Source: Alicyclobacillus contaminans DSM 17975 (GTDB taxonomy: Bacteria; Bacillota; Bacilli; Alicyclobacillales; Alicyclobacillaceae). From it: a stretch of 50,529 bases of DNA. The notes beneath the pieces were generated by a model, which was not told where the DNA came from, did not search any database, and worked only from the letters and a program-made list of their open reading frames with translations. A program made the position numbers and the translations under genes. Within the stretch, counting starts at the first letter, position 1; the number at the start of each line of letters is the position of its first letter. The stretch covers positions 1 through 50,529 of the forward strand of contig NZ_AUCA01000026.1 in the NCBI RefSeq assembly GCF_000429525.1, written 5' to 3'. Of this stretch, positions 10,537 through 31,908 are shown piece by piece.

Positions 10537-11223
10537 GTGAACATCCTCGTGGTCGAAGATGAGGAACCGATTTTGAACATTCTAAAATTCACGTTGGAGA
10601 AAGAGGGATACCAGGTGCAGACGGCCACCACCGGGACCAGCGCGGTTCGCCTGGCGAGAACCTGGCAGCCCCACCTCATTCTGCTCGACGTCATGCTGCC
10701 CGAAATGGACGGCTTTGAGGTTTGTCGCGAAGTTCGCGGATTCAGCACGGTTCCCATCATCATGCTCACCGCGCGCAATTCAGAGATTGATAAAGTGTTG
10801 GGGTTGGAACTGGGAGCGGACGACTATGTCACGAAGCCGTTCAGTATGCGGGAACTGCTGGCTCGCGTGAAGGCCAATCTACGGCGGACGTTCTCCGATG
10901 ACGAGTTTCGGGCGGAACTACGTGAAACCATTCGTATCGGCGATTTAGCGGTGGATTTCAACACCTATACTGTGACAAAACGGGGCGTGCCCGTGCCGCT
11001 CACGCATCGAGAGTTTGAACTGCTGGCTTTTCTCGCCGGACGTCCAGGGGTGGTGTTCACCCGAGACAGCCTGCTGACCCAGGTGTGGGGCAGTGATTAT
11101 GTGGGCGATGATCGGACGGTGGACGTGACCGTGCGGAGGCTTCGCGAGAAGCTGGAGGATGATCCGAGCAATCCCACCTACGTTCTGACCAAGCGCGGGG
11201 TTGGATACTTTGTGAGGAGGTAG
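10537..11223 (+). CDS. walR: Response regulator WalR (YycF)
   Basis: OmpR-type response regulator of the essential WalRK system, which controls peptidoglycan hydrolases and cell-wall metabolism in low-GC Gram-positives. 228 residues: receiver domain (1-118) with acidic pocket E7/D8, phosphoacceptor Asp51 (LILLDVMLPEMDG) and Lys100; winged-helix DNA-binding domain (130-228) with VTVRRLREKLEDDP. The start is GTG 10537, with AGGAGG at 10523-10528. It is the first gene of walR-walK-walH-walI-walJ-htrA-rlmH. Confidence 0.96.
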   Translation: MNILVVEDEEPILNILKFTLEKEGYQVQTATTGTSAVRLARTWQPHLILLDVMLPEMDGFEVCREVRGFSTVPIIMLTARNSEIDKVLGLELGADDYVTKPFSMRELLARVKANLRRTFSDDEFRAELRETIRIGDLAVDFNTYTVTKRGVPVPLTHREFELLAFLAGRPGVVFTRDSLLTQVWGSDYVGDDRTVDVTVRRLREKLEDDPSNPTYVLTKRGVGYFVRR

Positions 11224-20041: not shown

Positions 20042-20340
20042 TGTCGGGGGTGCGGAATTTGGACGGCTACCGCTACCGGTTGGGACGGCCACGCATACGG
20101 TGGACTGTGCTGCGAGGAAGGAAGGGCCCCCTGTGTACGACGGCGCATTCGGAGGAGATAGGCGTTGGGCTGTGGTGTTTCCGCTGATTTGTGCTCTTGT
20201 GGCTGCTGGTGGCCACGGATGTGAATACAGGTACCACGACATCCGGGTATGGAGGACGATGTGACACAGGGTGCACCGCATGGGAAGAGGGGGCCCGGCG
20301 CCGCGCCGTTTTGTTTGGAAACGCAGGGGAGGGGTTCGGA
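20042..20340. other. 299-base interval without a convincing gene
   Basis: GC-rich DNA between glycerate kinase and the next clear gene. It holds one weak candidate small frame (20133-20264). No hairpin with a U-tract, promoter or repeat stands out. Confidence 0.5.
20133..20264 (+). CDS. Possible small membrane-associated peptide (weak)
   Basis: A 43-residue frame from GTG 20133, with GAAGGAAGGG upstream at a long spacing. It has one hydrophobic stretch (WAVVFPLICALVAAGG) near the middle and a short charged tail. No family is recognised and overlapping frames are also open, so this is only a candidate. Confidence 0.2.
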   Translation: MYDGAFGGDRRWAVVFPLICALVAAGGHGCEYRYHDIRVWRTM

Positions 20341-20694
20341 ATGTACAACTGCTGGGAGTGTCAACGGTTTGTCGGGCGTTGGGTGCAGTTTCGGACACAG
20401 TATGGATGTCATTTGGGTTACGTGGAGCGTGTGTCCGAGGATTCGATGATTGTTGTGACGCCACAGAGGTACATGCCGGCGGCATTGCTGTCCGCGGCAA
20501 CGGCTGACGGGCAGACTTCTCGCATGGACGTGTCGTTGACGTGGGGCATACCGCGGTCAGGGCCCCGGCGTGCAGGTGTGGGTCCATGGGGACCCAACGG
20601 GGGGGTTCCGGGGTACGGGTTCGGTCCTGCGCCTTGGTATCGCTGGGCAGTATCGTTTCTCATCATTTACGCGTTGTGGGGCCTGCTTTGGTAG
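20341..20694 (+). CDS. Small protein with YG-H-G core and C-terminal membrane segment
   Basis: A 117-residue hypothetical protein. ATG 20341 has GGGGAGGGG upstream. Its first 40 residues (FVGRWVQFRTQYGCHLGYVE) share a pattern with the minus-strand gene at 47365-47664 (YVGQWVHVHSMYGMHVGIL), so the two appear to be paralogues. The core may be a small beta-barrel (Sm-like or SH3-like), which is an inference. The middle is rich in Gly and Pro, and the end (WAVSFLIIYALWGLLW) is hydrophobic enough to insert in a membrane. A terminator follows. Confidence 0.6.
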   Translation: MYNCWECQRFVGRWVQFRTQYGCHLGYVERVSEDSMIVVTPQRYMPAALLSAATADGQTSRMDVSLTWGIPRSGPRRAGVGPWGPNGGVPGYGFGPAPWYRWAVSFLIIYALWGLLW

Positions 20695-20735
20695 GTTTGG
20701 ACTCTCCGTCGGTTTCTCCATCGAGGTCCTTGCTG

Positions 20736-20780
20736 ACGCCGCCGTCGTTCGCGCTTTCTAGCGCGGAGACGGCGTTTTTT
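20736..20780 (+). terminator. Intrinsic terminator
   Basis: Outer stem CGCCGTC (20740-20746)/GACGGCG (20768-20774), inner CGCGCT/AGCGCG, then TTTTTT. It isolates the upstream genes from the ParMR cassette. Confidence 0.9.
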
Positions 20781-20816
20781 CGAGATCCCAACAGACAAAC
20801 TTTCCGCCACCAAACG

Positions 20817-20930
20817 TTAAATCGTAAAGTGTAAACTCTAAACTTTATAAAGTTTAGAGTTCGAACTTCGAACTTTGAATGTGTAAAATTTAAGCTTTAC
20901 GATTTAAAGTCTAGACTGCCAAAGTTTATG
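20817..20930. repeat. AT-rich repeat array, candidate parC centromere
   Basis: A block of about 114 bases, sharply AT-rich against its surroundings, made of variants of AAAGTTTAGA in both orientations about 11-12 bases apart (for example at 20826, 20837, 20849, 20868, 20906 and 20921). A perfect 28-bp palindrome occupies 20834-20861. A 13-bp inverted repeat (20817-20829 and 20895-20907) frames the centre. It lies directly upstream of parM and its promoter, where centromeres and operators of ParMRC systems are found. The centromere role is inferred. Confidence 0.7.
20834..20861. repeat. Perfect 28-bp palindrome inside the array
   Basis: Half-site AACTCTAAACTTTA followed directly by its reverse complement, with no loop. 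It is suited to binding a symmetric dimer such as a ribbon-helix-helix protein. Confidence 0.85.
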
Positions 20931-20939
20931 TCCAATTGA

Positions 20940-20968
20940 TTGGCGGGCCGGGCGGAATCCCTTATACT
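20940..20968 (+). promoter_or_regulatory. Promoter of parMR
   Basis: TTGGCG (20940-20945), 17 bases, TATACT (20963-20968). It begins ten bases after the repeat array, so the adaptor bound there could repress it. Confidence 0.6.
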
Positions 20969-21007
20969 GTTAGGGTAAAGAACGATTGGATGGAGAGGAG
21001 AACGAAC

Positions 21008-22216
21008 TTGGCAAAAAACGAAGCGCTCGTAACGACCATCGCATTGTCCATGGACAACGGCAGCAGTCACATTAAGGGGATTTACGATGCGTTGGACAAC
21101 ACGTTCATTTTCCCGAACGTGGTATCGCAGCCCGTTGGTGAACGGTTCCTATTGACGGAGCAAGGGAATCCTTTGGACTTCCTCGATGTCCAAATCACCT
21201 CGCCGGCGATTGAGAGCGAACAGTATCGCCACGTGTACGTCGGCAACCTGGCGATTGGCGACGAAGGGGTTGTCCACGAGATTGTCGGGGACAAGGCGGC
21301 GCAGAAGAAGGCCCAGCGCCCCGAGACGATGGTGACGCTGCTGACGGGGGCCGCCTATGCCGTGGCCAAAAAGCACGAGGCGGACATTCGGCGGGGCGTG
21401 AAGCGCATCAAGGCCGCTGTGCAGCTTGGGACCGGACTGCCCATCAGTGAAATTGCCAAGTTTCGAACAGAGTTTGCAGCCAAAATCACCGAGGGCGTGC
21501 ACTCGGTCAGCTTTGTTACAACACCCGTCTACAAGGGCGTGACCGTCGAGCTGGAATTCTCTCTACCTATCGACATTGGCATTGACGACGTGTCGGGTGT
21601 CTACGACATCGAGGCCACGTCCAAATCTCCGCTGTCCCACAAAGGGTTCGGCATTGCCGATGTCGGAGGCGTGGACATGGACATCGCCTTTTTCCGGCCG
21701 GGGCTGGAACTGGATCAACGGCATTCGACCGGAACCAAAATCCACCTCAATGATGCTCTCGAAAACATCCGGAACGAAGTGAACGCCGAGGGCGAGGAAC
21801 TGATTGCCAACACCGCAGAACTCACACAGATGCTGGTGAACAAAGAGTACGAGATTTATAGGGAAGGCAAAGTCGTCTTCGACATGACCAACCTGGTCAA
21901 CCGGCACATGCGCATCCTCGCCGAGAAGGTGTTGAAGTCCGCCCGCGGCGCGTGGAAGCACGTGCGCTATGCGAATGAGTTTTGGTTTATCGGCGGCGGA
22001 GCCATTGTCCTGCAGCCTTGGATTGAAAAATTGAATGCCGAATTGGGACTGCCCATTCGTTTCGACGCCGTGGAGTACAGTCAATTCCGCAACGCGCGGG
22101 GAACGTTCCTGCTGCTGAGCCACGCGCTGGAGACCCAGCCTGAGGTGGCGGTCGGCAAGCAGCCTGCGGCAGACACCTCCGCTGCGAAGACAGAGGACGG
22201 GACGGATTCGAATTGA
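21008..22216 (+). CDS. parM: ParM/StbA-like actin-type ATPase
   Basis: A 402-residue bacterial actin of the plasmid-segregation class, expected to form filaments that push or pull DNA. Actin-fold motifs can be read: phosphate-1 DNGSSHIKG (from Asp16), phosphate-2 IADVGGVDMD (about residues 217-226) and the adenosine motif IGGGA (about 328-332). The start is TTG 21008, with GAGAGGAG at 20993-21000; an earlier in-frame ATG (20990) lacks a site. The gene overlaps parR by four bases, lies downstream of the repeat array and is unlike MreB in motif spacing and context. Confidence 0.88.
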   Translation: MAKNEALVTTIALSMDNGSSHIKGIYDALDNTFIFPNVVSQPVGERFLLTEQGNPLDFLDVQITSPAIESEQYRHVYVGNLAIGDEGVVHEIVGDKAAQKKAQRPETMVTLLTGAAYAVAKKHEADIRRGVKRIKAAVQLGTGLPISEIAKFRTEFAAKITEGVHSVSFVTTPVYKGVTVELEFSLPIDIGIDDVSGVYDIEATSKSPLSHKGFGIADVGGVDMDIAFFRPGLELDQRHSTGTKIHLNDALENIRNEVNAEGEELIANTAELTQMLVNKEYEIYREGKVVFDMTNLVNRHMRILAEKVLKSARGAWKHVRYANEFWFIGGGAIVLQPWIEKLNAELGLPIRFDAVEYSQFRNARGTFLLLSHALETQPEVAVGKQPAADTSAAKTEDGTDSN

Positions 22217-22680
22217 AAAAGCGCCGTTCCACGGTGTACGTGCGACCTGGGAAGGACGTCACGCTGTACGTGCCGGCGGAAACGCCTCCGGAGGTCATCG
22301 AATACCTGAATCGCCTCAAGGATGAAGGGAACTTCAGCCAAGGGGTCATCGACATTCTTACCGAATACATCCAATCCAAGGGGCGTACAGCCGCGGCGAC
22401 GCAAGCGGCGGTGGACATCGACCCAGCCGATGGTCAGTCCGTCCATCCGCGCGAGCCATCGGTGATCGAATTCCCGACTGAGACGTCTCGGCAAGAACCA
22501 CCCGCATCCACGTCGTCCGCTTCCGACCCCGCTGGCGGTGCCGAGGTGGACAGGGCGGATGCCCCCACCGAGGAACCATCCGCACATGTGCCGGAGCCAC
22601 ACACGGAGCGGCGCAAGCTGAGCCTTGCGCAGATCTTCCGTCAGGCGCAACGAAACGCGGGTCGATTGACAGATGGCTGA
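22213..22680 (+). CDS. parR: ParR-like DNA-binding adaptor
   Basis: A 155-residue protein coupled to parM (TTG start within the parM stop). The N-terminal part has a strand (VTLYVPAET) and two helices (PPEVIEYLNRLKDEG, NFSQGVIDILTEYIQSKG), the layout of a ribbon-helix-helix or ParR-type DNA-binding dimer. Residues 65-130 are low-complexity, acidic and Pro-rich. A basic amphipathic helix ends the protein (LSLAQIFRQAQRNAGRL), a plausible filament-capping peptide as in known ParR proteins. The function is inferred from context and architecture. Confidence 0.7.
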   Translation: MKKRRSTVYVRPGKDVTLYVPAETPPEVIEYLNRLKDEGNFSQGVIDILTEYIQSKGRTAAATQAAVDIDPADGQSVHPREPSVIEFPTETSRQEPPASTSSASDPAGGAEVDRADAPTEEPSAHVPEPHTERRKLSLAQIFRQAQRNAGRLTDG

Positions 22681-22699
22681 CAATGCTCGATTCAGCAGG

Positions 22700-22728
22700 A
22701 AAAGGGCACCCTCCATGGGTGCCCTTTT
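22700..22728 (+). terminator. Intrinsic terminator after parR
   Basis: A perfect 12-bp stem AAAAGGGCACCC/GGGTGCCCTTTT with a 5-base loop. It closes the parMR unit. Confidence 0.93.
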
Positions 22729-22800
22729 CATACTGGGGCGTGTGACGCACCGCCGCTCTGGCAACAAACTGGAACGACGAGAACTGTTAGATTGAGATAT

Positions 22801-26149: not shown

Positions 26150-26305
26150 GGCAATCTAGGGACGGGCCGAGTTTTGAGTGGGGACACTCAAAAGCGGGGG
26201 AACCAACGTTCGGGGGTGAATTGCGCGGCTGCGCCAGCTTCCGCGCATAGGCGGCCTTGGTCTGCCAAACCCGTCAGCTAACCTCGTAGGCGAATACTGT
26301 GGGAT
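26150..26305 (+). promoter_or_regulatory. c-di-AMP riboswitch (ydaO/yuaA type)
   Basis: The conserved blocks of this class are present in order: AGGGACGGGCCGAG, a GAGTGGGGACACTC arm, GCGGGGGAACCAACG, GGGGGTGAATT and the strongly conserved CCCGTCAGCTAACCTCGTAG end. It precedes an osmolyte importer, a known target of this riboswitch, which switches expression off when c-di-AMP is high. The boundaries are approximate. Downstream, CCAGCA (26337-26342) can pair with TGCTGG at either 26316-26321 or 26367-26372, a possible expression platform. The rest up to 26489 is untranslated leader with a GC-rich palindrome at 26455-26470. Confidence 0.9.
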
Positions 26306-26489
26306 TGCTGGTTTTCCTCATCCAGACTCACACATGCCAGCATACATCGAGACAACGCGCATGGGTTGCTGGACGTCTCCACGCACAGACGTTCGGCGGC
26401 CTAATCGTACCCACCTTCATATTCGTCCTTGGCTATCCCTGCCTTGGTGATGCTGCACGGCGCGCCGTGCGAGAGAAAAGGGGGATACC

Positions 26490-27659
26490 ATGGAGAAATT
26501 CGCTGTCGAATTTCGCAATGTCAGCAAGTCGTACGGTGACCATCCAGTCGTTCGGGACATCAGCTTCGCCGTTGCCGTTGGTCAATTGGTCACTCTGATT
26601 GGCCCATCCGGGTGCGGTAAGACGACGACGCTGAAAATGGTCAATCGTTTGATTGAACCCACGTCCGGAACCCTCCTGGTCCATGGCGAAGATGTCCGAC
26701 GCCGCAACCCAGTCGAACTGCGCCGGAGCATTGGCTACGTGATTCAACAGATTGGCCTGTTTCCGCACCTCACCATTGAGGAAAACATCGCGTTGGTGCC
26801 GCGGCTGAACCGCCAGGATAAACGAGCCTATCTGCGACGCGCGGAGGAACTGCTCGATTTGATTGGGCTCGATCCGGCCCGTTTTCGCCACCGCTATCCT
26901 GGGGAACTCAGCGGCGGTCAGCAGCAGCGCGTGGGCGTCGCGCGCGCCCTTGCGGCGGATCCGGACATCATTCTGATGGATGAACCGTTCAGCGCCCTCG
27001 ACCCCATCAGCCGCGAAAGTCTGCAGGATGAATTGCTGCGCCTGCAGGGAACGCTCCGCAAAACGATTCTGTTTGTCACCCACGATATGGACGAAGCCAT
27101 GAAACTGGCCGACAACATCATCCTTATGAAGGACGGGGAGATTGTTCAGGCAGACTCTCCGGATCAAATCCTTCGACATCCGAAAGATGAGTTTGTCCGC
27201 GACTTTGTTGGGGAGAAACGTTTCCGGCAGGCCGCGTGGTCGGCGGTGGCAGGGGATGTGATGACCAACGCTGTCACCATCTCTCCGTCCCGCGGCCTTG
27301 CGGAAGCGGTGCATTTGATGGGGCGCCAGCGCGTCAACGGGCTGATGGTTACCGACAATCACCAGCACTACCTGGGGGTCGTCGGCGCTGAGGAAGTGTA
27401 TCGGAATTACGGTAACGAACGCCAGACTGTGGCGGACGTGATGAACCGGGATCTGCCCGTCGTGTCGGAGGACACCCCGCTCCCTCGCGTGCTGGCGGCG
27501 ATGGAATCGGGCAGAGGGTACCTCCCTGTGCTGGACGCGAACAGGAAGCTGCTCGGGGTGGTTACGCGGGCCAGTGTGATTCGACTGGTGGTAGAGACCT
27601 ACAGGGGAGGTGCGGCCAATGAACGCACTGATGCAGGCGTTGTCGCAAAACTGGGGTGA
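26490..27659 (+). CDS. opuCA: Osmoprotectant ABC transporter ATPase (OpuCA-like)
   Basis: ATP-binding subunit, 389 residues, of an importer for glycine betaine, carnitine, choline or related osmolytes. Walker A is GPSGCGKTT (38-46), the signature is LSGGQQQR (140-147) and Walker B is ILMDEP (160-165). Two C-terminal CBS domains (about 245-370) are typical of OpuA/OpuC ATPases, where they sense ionic strength or c-di-AMP. The start ATG 26490 follows AAAAGGGGG. It overlaps the permease gene by 41 bases. Control by the upstream c-di-AMP riboswitch fits this role. Confidence 0.93.
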   Translation: MEKFAVEFRNVSKSYGDHPVVRDISFAVAVGQLVTLIGPSGCGKTTTLKMVNRLIEPTSGTLLVHGEDVRRRNPVELRRSIGYVIQQIGLFPHLTIEENIALVPRLNRQDKRAYLRRAEELLDLIGLDPARFRHRYPGELSGGQQQRVGVARALAADPDIILMDEPFSALDPISRESLQDELLRLQGTLRKTILFVTHDMDEAMKLADNIILMKDGEIVQADSPDQILRHPKDEFVRDFVGEKRFRQAAWSAVAGDVMTNAVTISPSRGLAEAVHLMGRQRVNGLMVTDNHQHYLGVVGAEEVYRNYGNERQTVADVMNRDLPVVSEDTPLPRVLAAMESGRGYLPVLDANRKLLGVVTRASVIRLVVETYRGGAANERTDAGVVAKLG

Positions 27660-28332
27660 CTTGGCCACCGCGCTTGGGCAGCATCTGTTTCTGTCTCTGG
27701 TCGCCGTGGTGTTGGGATGCGTAATTTCGGTGCCGCTGGGTGTTTATCTGACGCGCCACCGACGCTTGGCCGGACCGGTGTTGACGGTGGTCTCCGTCAT
27801 CCAGACGATTCCCAGCCTGGCGTTGCTGGGCTTCATGATTCCGCTGCTCGGAATCGGCACGGTTCCGGCGGTGATTGCGTTGACGCTGTACGCCCTGTTG
27901 CCGATGGTTCGCAATACCTACACGGGCATTCAGGAAGTGGACCGAAGCCTGATTGAATCGGCGACGGGCATGGGGATGACGCGCCGGCAAATTCTGTGGA
28001 TGGTGGAACTGCCGATGGCGCGCGGCATCATTATCGCCGGCGTGCGTACGTCGGCGGTGACCACCATCGGCGTGGCGACGCTGGCCACGTTCATCGGCGC
28101 CGGCGGGCTGGGAGACATCATCATGCGCGGGATAGATATGATTGACACGCCCACGATTCTGGTGGGGGCCATCCCGGCAGCCCTGCTGGCCATCGTGTTC
28201 GACGTGTTGTTGATGTGGTTGGACCGCTGGCTCACCCCGCGTGGATTGCGGGTTGCTGCGCGCTCGGGGCAGCGCAGAGCCGACGGGAATGTGACGGTGG
28301 AGACGGCCGACATTCGGCGGCGTGGCGCTTAA
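27619..28332 (+). CDS. opuCB: Osmoprotectant ABC transporter permease (OpuCB-like)
   Basis: A 237-residue permease with about five to six membrane segments and the coupling-loop motif (ESATGMGMTRRQILWMVELP). The start ATG 27619 has GGAGG at 27604-27608; the in-frame GTG 27610 is too close to that site. Only one permease gene is present, so the channel is expected to be a homodimer, unlike the two-permease OpuC systems. It is followed by the binding-protein gene. Confidence 0.9.
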   Translation: MNALMQALSQNWGDLATALGQHLFLSLVAVVLGCVISVPLGVYLTRHRRLAGPVLTVVSVIQTIPSLALLGFMIPLLGIGTVPAVIALTLYALLPMVRNTYTGIQEVDRSLIESATGMGMTRRQILWMVELPMARGIIIAGVRTSAVTTIGVATLATFIGAGGLGDIIMRGIDMIDTPTILVGAIPAALLAIVFDVLLMWLDRWLTPRGLRVAARSGQRRADGNVTVETADIRRRGA

Positions 28333-30888: not shown

Positions 30889-30976
30889 TAAGTGTCTCAA
30901 GGCAAACCAGTGGAAACGCTGGGGCGCAAAGCTACGGGTCTACGGACTGGAGGTCTATGATCGCCGGGTTGCCACG
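30889..30976 (+). promoter_or_regulatory. c-di-GMP-I riboswitch (GEMM)
   Basis: The GEMM-I core is clear: GGCAAACC (30901-30908), a GAAA-capped stem (CCAGTG/CGCTGG), GGGGCGCAAAGC, a second stem arm and the closing GGGTTGCC (30966-30973). A likely -35 TTGACA lies at 30825-30830, with a weak -10 near 30850. The closing strand GGGTTGCC can also pair with the 5' arm of the downstream terminator (31000-31006). This suggests that ligand binding favours termination. Confidence 0.9.
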
Positions 30977-31056: not shown

Positions 31057-31908
31057 ATGAAGAGAGAGACAAAAAGTCGGGCAACGGGGGATGGCGCGAA
31101 CGTGACGGATGCGGACATCGCGGTGCTGCGCCCGAAAAATATGCAATCCATCGTTCAGGATGTTCTCGCAGGCGGGGATCTGCACATGGTTTACCAGCCG
31201 ATTGTCAACCACGCGGAGGGCATCTTATTCGGTCATGAAGCGCTGAGCAGGCCCCAGGCAAACGGAGAGATGGTCAGACCGGATTTGTGGTTTCGCGCAG
31301 CCCATCAGTGCGGCTTGGCGGTGGAAGCTGATTTGTTGGCATTGCACAGTGCCGTCAAACACGTGGCGTCATATGCGATGACAGACAACGTCATGCCGCT
31401 GTTTGTAAACATCACCCCGACCACGATTTCCGAGCCGCGATTCCTGCGGGCTTTGGAGGAGTTGTTCGACCATGGCATGCTCGTGCCGCAGGAAGTCGTG
31501 ATTGAACTCATCGAGTACATATCTTATAACCCTCGCTACCTCGCTGACGCAGTCAGTTCCCTGCGTTCCATGGGATTGCGGATTGCGTTGGACGACTTTG
31601 GCGTATGCGCGTCTGGCATGAGTGCGCTGGTTGAGCTCGATCCGGATTTCGTCAAAGTCGACCGCTCCTTGGTACAGGGCATTGCCGCATCAGACAGAAA
31701 GCGCCGACTGCTCATTCACCTGGCAGACTACATGAATACAGAAGAGTCAGTGATTGCCGAAGGGATTGAAGAGAAGGACGACCTCCAGGCCGTCCAAGAA
31801 ATCGGTGTATCGCTGAGTCAGGGGTATTATTGGGAGCGACCGGTCACCCTGGAACGACTGCCGGAATCCCATGCGGTGCTCCACCAGGAACGCCTGCGGT
31901 GGAAGTGA
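31057..31908 (+). CDS. EAL domain c-di-GMP phosphodiesterase
   Basis: A 283-residue stand-alone EAL protein that hydrolyses c-di-GMP to pGpG. Active-site positions are kept: EAL at 61-63 (HEALSRP), VNITP, ELIEY, LDDFG, the Lys of FVKVDRS, AEGIEE and SQGYYWERP. It should therefore be active. It has no membrane segment or sensor domain, only a short variable N-terminus. The start ATG 31057 has only a modest GAGGG upstream. Expression is governed by the c-di-GMP riboswitch directly upstream, giving a feedback loop between the messenger and its degrading enzyme. Confidence 0.92.
   Translation: MKRETKSRATGDGANVTDADIAVLRPKNMQSIVQDVLAGGDLHMVYQPIVNHAEGILFGHEALSRPQANGEMVRPDLWFRAAHQCGLAVEADLLALHSAVKHVASYAMTDNVMPLFVNITPTTISEPRFLRALEELFDHGMLVPQEVVIELIEYISYNPRYLADAVSSLRSMGLRIALDDFGVCASGMSALVELDPDFVKVDRSLVQGIAASDRKRRLLIHLADYMNTEESVIAEGIEEKDDLQAVQEIGVSLSQGYYWERPVTLERLPESHAVLHQERLRWK

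Follow-up and report, generated by a model that had tools for sequence, protein, structure and literature searches.

A chromosomal type II partition cassette with a heptad-repeat putative parC, found near the replication origin in Alicyclobacillus and Paenibacillus

The window considered here is the whole of contig C25 (50,529 bp) of the 3.27-Mb genome of Alicyclobacillus contaminans DSM 17975, which falls in the same genus group as genome G001. It contains the genome's single copy (E <= 0.001) of a type II (actin-type) ParMRC cassette, in which an array of tandem 7-bp repeats (putative parC) is followed by a promoter, parM and parR, with a terminator-like hairpin on each side (Table 1). A first-pass annotation of this DNA had described a full type II partition module among core chromosomal genes close to the origin; the parts, the layout and the gene context confirm that observation, and the interpretation attached to it is partly supported. 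We read the cassette, with a probability of roughly one in two, as a chromosomal type II ParMRC system whose docking site is its own parC on the origin side and which, alongside ParABS, pushes or anchors sister origins. A more elaborate proposal is put forward tentatively: a dedicated actin-driven chromosome segregation machine, built on a heptad centromere beside the origin that Alicyclobacillus and Paenibacillus would have retained for a long time and that would have stayed near oriC even after transfer between them. It would operate together with ParABS, and ParR would sheathe the DNA at 7-bp intervals (8-bp intervals in a related group). The kind of system is already known through chromosomal ParMs; the conserved heptad parC and its origin-side placement look new.

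Tandem parC-type repeats lie directly beside the operon, and the order of array, parM and parR is also found in plasmid type II systems (PMC5016525). The array has a period of 7 bp and the unit TTTAAAS, with a lag-7 match of 0.60 (z 6.8 relative to dinucleotide shuffles). A repeat model counts 14 heptads in it; dinucleotide-shuffling the same 450 bases 300 times yields a mean of 1.6 and a maximum of 7. These values substantiate the upstream repeat array of the first-pass annotation, in which neither the period of 7 bp nor the 8-bp form of a related group nor the near-uniqueness of the array in 10 genomes had been noticed. The folded-strand z of the array (-5.9) is not used as evidence because the repeats are palindromic.

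The period is kept among relatives. The lag-7 z is at least 3.6 in 33 of 35 loci of the heptad group, the two below this cut being L037 (z -0.6) and L072 (z 2.6, but 4.2 at lag 14). The repeat model, trained on the same 38 heptad loci whose units it counts, finds 9-29 TTTAAAS units in 37 of them and 4 in L037; 380 full-length dinucleotide shuffles of these loci have a mean of 2.2 and a maximum of 10, with 2/380 reaching 9. The group whose ParMs are 43-47% identical has 8-bp arrays, with a lag-8 z of at least 2.5 in five of six loci; the lag-8 signal is weak in L040 and L041, and there is none for L042 in the chosen stretch. Octad arrays comprise 10-19 units in all eight loci, whereas the highest count in 320 shuffles is 9. 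Exchanging the two models yields 0-5 heptad units in octad loci and 0-4 octad units in heptad loci, except for L074 with 11. At L035 (A. pomorum) there are two separate heptad arrays, approximately 255-360 and 90-200 bases upstream of parM, with 29 units in total. Upstream of parM in L037 (genome G003) another, GC-richer repeat-like stretch can be seen by eye.

A 23-base heptad pattern, allowing up to three mismatches, was searched for in 10 genomes, where matches often overlap inside one array. There are 35 forward matches, 34 of them no more than 400 bp upstream of parM and one elsewhere, and the backwards control gives one; in the window's genome the array is the only match. The sole match away from parM (G063:C23:112545-112567) may be a second ParR site or a chance occurrence.

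ParM is a ParM-fold actin-like ATPase. Its open reading frame (ORF) spans 20936-22216 with a likely TTG start at 21008, directly preceded by GGAGAGGAG. Three Pfam families match above their gathering thresholds (Alp7A_like_C, 2.9e-10; MreB-like_C, 2.5e-7; ALP_N, 5.8e-6), and PHROG 691 'partition protein' matches at 3.8e-24. The AlphaFold2 (AF2) model is of moderate confidence (mean pLDDT 68.2, pTM 0.68) and aligns best, by VIA-align, with Alp7A (Z 26.6, 3.8 A over 341 residues) and BtParM (Z 25.9, 5.2 A over 346; profile match 6e-10), followed by Dh-cParM1 (Z 23.4, 3.8 A over 338) and CorM (Z 22.2, 3.5 A over 317), a cyanobacterial filament protein known here by its PDB title only. Dh-cParM1 is also the sole PDB match by single sequence at E <= 1 (0.0063), with approximately 18% identity in the structure alignment. 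Thirteen ParM sequences, in an alignment that omits G009 (L043), share invariant residues D16, D218, G220, G221 and G329-G331, which are putative nucleotide-site residues by the known roles of these motifs.

ParR is the small adaptor gene within the parM operon, and its start overlaps the parM stop by 4 nt in most of the relatives examined as well as in the window. Across the family, a linker that varies in both sequence and length joins a conserved N-terminal domain resembling ribbon-helix-helix (RHH) proteins to a basic C-terminal peptide that is likewise conserved. Of the two features noted at first pass, the basic C-terminal helix, lying after the variable linker, is conserved, and the RHH domain is plausible, given the sequence pattern and the helices of the AF2 model. 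That model is weak (mean pLDDT 62.9, pTM 0.30), with helices at 26-38 and 41-65 and the C-terminal helix at 138-151. Pfam assigns ParR no family at E <= 0.1, profile searches of Pfam and PDB give no meaningful match, and Foldseek and VIA give no usable fold match. The N-terminal strand differs between the heptad and octad groups in step with the array, which suggests that ParR and its repeats may co-evolve.

Repeat length sets this array apart from the parC sites of plasmids R1 and pSK41. The parC repeats are 11 bp in R1 and 20 bp in pSK41, both longer than the 7 bp seen here. In those ParMRC systems the tandem parC repeats also lie upstream of the operon and the C-terminal tail of ParR binds ParM (PMC5016525); the same source also mentions 10-bp repeats. 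Tandem 7-bp repeats are instead a likeness to parS of pSM19035, in which contiguous 7-bp repeats lie at the promoters of partition genes and a small RHH protein binds as one dimer per 7 bp (PMC9499535); this omega/ParB-pSM protein winds about the DNA as a left-handed helix (PMC5016525). The pSM19035 motor is a ParA and its repeat WATCACW, whereas the operon partner here is an actin-like ATPase, not a ParA-type Walker motor, and the repeat is TTTAAAS. A 7-bp spacing would turn successive ParR dimers round the DNA, not stack them on one face, and we infer a centromere geometry unlike the helix that ParR forms in R1 and pSK41.

ParMRC systems had been described at first pass as known mainly from plasmids, which omits the chromosomal ParMs (cParMs) published in J Biol Chem in 2025, Dh-cParM1 of Desulfitobacterium and Cb-cParM (PMC12270681). 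The cassette shares with them a chromosomal parM-parR pair in Firmicutes, conservation within lineages, and ParA/ParB genes alongside as reported for the cParMs (PMC12270681). Dh-cParM1 forms filaments, and the role of the cParMs is left open in that account (PMC12270681), in whose description of the Cb strains a conserved cparC is not identified. Its main text makes no mention of Alicyclobacillus, Paenibacillus or heptads, and 'oriC' occurs there only in a reference title. The closest structural relatives, Alp7A and BtParM, are plasmid-borne (PMC12270681); the window cassette is chromosomal and its kind is origin-proximal in two bacterial groups. Titles and the beginnings of abstracts, a survey that leaves subscription papers and preprints uncovered, gave no report of a heptad array, of origin proximity or of this cassette.

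The cassette is conserved on chromosomes within lineages, though its distribution is patchy and includes transfer between them. Among 61 genomes, 37 belong to the window's family; nine of these, the window's included, have ParM orthologues at 80-100% identity with heptad arrays, five have a 43-46% identical ParM with octad arrays, and none carries both kinds. The other 24 genomes have no ParM match above 30%. Scanning one genome per species (84,980 species) by pattern returned 38 loci, and every one of them carries the label Alicyclobacillus, Paenibacillus or Gordonibacillus. Within Paenibacillus, one family has the cassette in 24 of 104 genomes and the order has it in 28 of 392. The orthologous ParMs of the window's family and of Paenibacillus chromosomes share 75-90% identity. 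The hosts are spore formers of soil and of spoiled food. At the Gordonibacillus locus (L077, ~10957-11026) the parM match shifts frame near its end, through a frameshift or a sequencing error. A second ParM, ~25-29% identical, is present in 21 of 27 genomes of the Paenibacillus set (for example G070:C1:1948991-1950016) and is partial in G078.

The window runs through molybdopterin oxidoreductase, ychF, DnaB-type helicase, walR, walK, yycH, htrA and rlmH, and beyond rlmH come glycerate kinase, the cassette, acyl carrier protein and acyl-CoA ligase. This gene order matches that to the left of oriC in Bacillus subtilis. The earlier statement that walRK and rlmH are a few kilobases away is accurate, parM lying 3.2 kb from rlmH (end 17791) and 8.0 kb from walK (end 12970). 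The dnaA gene of this genome is on another contig (C40), and the distance is judged from G001, which shares the walR-rlmH-parM order and has parM 38 kb from dnaA.

On 11 chromosome-scale contigs (seven heptad and four octad), parM is 38-104 kb from dnaA in 10, and it is co-directional with the replication fork in nine of the 11. Draft genomes with both genes on the same contig all (21/21) have parM to the left of dnaA and pointing away from it, at 31-145 kb, in a set biased to short distances. These counts omit 14 genomes with parM and dnaA on different contigs: the window's own, G018, G023, G035, G066, G071, G072, G075, G080, G081, G082, G084, G085 and G086. A Kolmogorov-Smirnov test of origin nearness gives p 5e-10, which overstates independence because the genomes are related. 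As a control, three chromosome-scale contigs give the positions of both dnaA and a ParM homologue of 26-29% identity, and the two are 1.26 Mb (G008), 0.40 Mb (G011) and 0.93 Mb (G070) apart.

Could the position reflect gene dosage or local conservation of gene order, and not action on the origin? Core genes around oriC keep their order, and in six genomes (window, G001, G004, G019 and G025 with heptads, G013 with octads) the cassette sits 0.4-7.4 kb beyond rlmH, so that transfer could have used shared flanks. Neighbours differ, however, in Paenibacillus, G003, G021 and G024, and parM is still near dnaA where this is measurable. Grouping loci by three or more shared flanking proteins within 10 kb yields 18 neighbourhood clusters among 39 loci, and origin nearness has therefore been kept beyond simple synteny. 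We regard dosage or gene order as a quite improbable explanation; no other hint that position matters is as strong as the nearness to oriC, amid different neighbours, on both sides of the transfer described below.

The search of relatives that had been suggested at first pass thus finds a cassette that is old and origin-proximal where measurable, and that is also patchy and transferred between lineages. ParM of the window and of G061 are 85% identical, with DnaA at 62%, whereas for G036 the values are 44% and 68%. Identity at fourfold-degenerate sites of parM is 0.40 between the window and G061 (0.38 expected by composition; dnaA behaves likewise), 0.32 with G070 (0.26 expected) and 0.40 with G001 (0.32 expected), the set compared omitting G009 (L043) and G035. 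On these codon comparisons the cassette is evidently not recent and appears to have been under purifying selection; they do not give it the age of the split of both groups, because the sites are saturated already within the genus. A recent lone insertion absent from relatives, which the first-pass annotation had named as a case that would refute it, is rejected, given the near-saturated sites and the spread among relatives.

Strict vertical descent is also rejected, on the contrast between G036 and G061, on pair counts and on the ParM tree. ParM is more alike than DnaA in all 90 Alicyclobacillus-Paenibacillus pairs (means 76% and 59%) and in 35 of 36 pairs within Alicyclobacillus (82% and 70%). 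The count within Paenibacillus is 26 of 45 (84% and 83%), so that ParM is not clearly more conserved than DnaA there. In the ParM tree the heptad ParMs of Alicyclobacillus fall inside the Paenibacillus set; the tree was made by a quick method, with an uncertain distant root on a long branch and 10 of 30 inner branches open. The simplest reading would be an old horizontal transfer followed by inheritance at about the rate of DnaA. ParM and DnaA distances correlate (Spearman 0.71), a value not used as evidence since the 171 pairs are non-independent.

Such movement invites the explanation that the cassette is mobile or plasmid-related, travelling between chromosomes, having come with an integrated plasmid or prophage, or acting in trans on plasmids. 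ParMRC is typically plasmid-borne, the nesting within Paenibacillus ParMs fits (with the reservation about the root), and the pair counts would place transfers later than host splits. Set against these are the synonymous sites close to saturation, possession of an own and nearly unique parC, and the database comparisons: 28 plasmid records match ParM, all below 60% identity (the best is 29.5% among the 20 matches listed), and neither phage records nor viral contigs hold relatives. No mobile-element gene was recognised among the flanking window proteins scanned. The flanks are glycerate kinase, acyl carrier protein and acyl-CoA ligase, and two nearby ORFs are without a PHROG match, which does not favour the role in stabilising an integrated element suggested earlier. 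An explanation through mobility is improbable.

Of the three roles offered at first pass (origin segregation, stabilisation of an integrated element, another filament role), origin segregation is the best supported, as a prediction. ParR dimers would line up next to one another along the 7-bp repeats of the adjoining parC, and ParR on the array would repress the operon promoter that abuts it. The array-bound protein would present many C-terminal peptides able to bind the ends of ParM filaments, and by analogy with plasmid type II systems (PMC5016525) ParR on parC would cap and feed these filaments. ATP-driven ParM filaments could then drive the two sister origin regions apart or anchor them, probably soon after the locus, tens of kilobases from oriC, has been replicated. 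The role would be additional to ParABS: ParB-family genes are retained in 19 of 19 cassette-bearing genomes tested (ParA was not searched for), so the cassette would supplement ParABS, and its replacement of that system is rejected.

A different use of the same parts is that of a repurposed cytoskeleton, with ParMR domesticated for cell shape or another filament role and the array surviving only as an operator for ParR. There is a precedent in FcmBC of filamentous cyanobacteria, a chromosomal ParMR derivative that acts in cell shape (PMC12645912), in whose paper parC is mentioned once, in the introduction on plasmids. CorM ranks among the nearest folds, the promoter directly adjoins the array, and ParB-family genes are at hand. 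Yet the number of tandem repeats in 37 of the 38 loci exceeds the apparent need of an operator, the period is kept within each group, and a shape function would not require nearness to oriC to be kept while neighbours change. We consider this use rather unlikely.

Several observations weigh against the proposed role in origin segregation. Touching the promoter, the array could be an operator only; it is nearly lost (4 units) at L037 in G003, where parM and parR remain open, and the 23-base pattern, with three mismatches allowed, finds nothing in G004 and G083. Profile and fold searches leave the RHH fold of ParR without confirmation. The cassette is patchy (14/37 genomes in the window's family, 24/104 and 28/392 in the Paenibacillus family and order) and has moved between lineages, as expected of a mobile cassette, and it is not needed to supply a partition system because ParB-family genes are present. 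As to position, parM of G036 is 548 kb from dnaA, the sole distant case on the chromosome-scale contigs; G003 and G024 have the cassette on the other arm, head-on to the fork; and the draft counts carry their bias to short distances. G081 is a probable exception, its dnaA contig covering ~220 kb of the left arm without the cassette, and in G072 at least 104 kb lie on the expected origin side of the contig, if it is oriented like the others.

The group offers a chromosomal parC that is defined, conserved and almost unique and that lies, in most measured cases, tens of kilobases from oriC, together with a natural comparison of 7-bp with 8-bp centromeres and their matching ParR groups.

The promoter and terminators named at first pass fared differently. 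The promoter taken alone is at chance level (1 found against 1.0 expected); its boxes and 17-nt spacer are also readable in L032, L033 and L034. Terminators on both sides are upheld by folding against shuffles, though a terminator scanner listed neither hairpin.

Table 1. Features of the ParMRC cassette in the window.
Feature	Position	Strand	Basis or remark
Terminator-like hairpin and T6 after upstream gene	20735..20785	+	Fold -27.2 kcal/mol, z -3.5, 2/200 shuffles as good
Putative parC, ~14 tandem 7-bp repeats TTTAAAS with 1-2 base slips	20816..20916	.	Periodicity, repeat model
Sigma-A-like promoter TTGGCG-17-TATACT	20940..20968	+	Directly 3' of array; boxes shared with relatives
parM, actin-like ATPase, 402 aa, TTG start	21008..22216	+	Pfam, PHROG, structure alignment
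parR, adaptor, 155 aa	22213..22680	+	4-nt overlap with parM; N-terminal RHH-like domain ~1-58, unconfirmed
Terminator-like hairpin after parR	22690..22735	+	Fold -27.6 kcal/mol, z -6.3, 0/200 shuffles as good

Between glycerate kinase and the cassette is an ORF of 167 amino acids (20191-20694, +) with no Pfam or PHROG family. Two riboswitches lie further along the plus strand: a c-di-GMP-I riboswitch (30891-30976, 72.6 bits) immediately 5' of a 283-amino-acid ORF at 31057, and a c-di-AMP (ydaO) riboswitch (26155-26307, 73.7 bits) 5' of an OpuA-like ABC transporter, whose genes are an ABC-CBS ATPase at 26490 and OpuAC at 28322.

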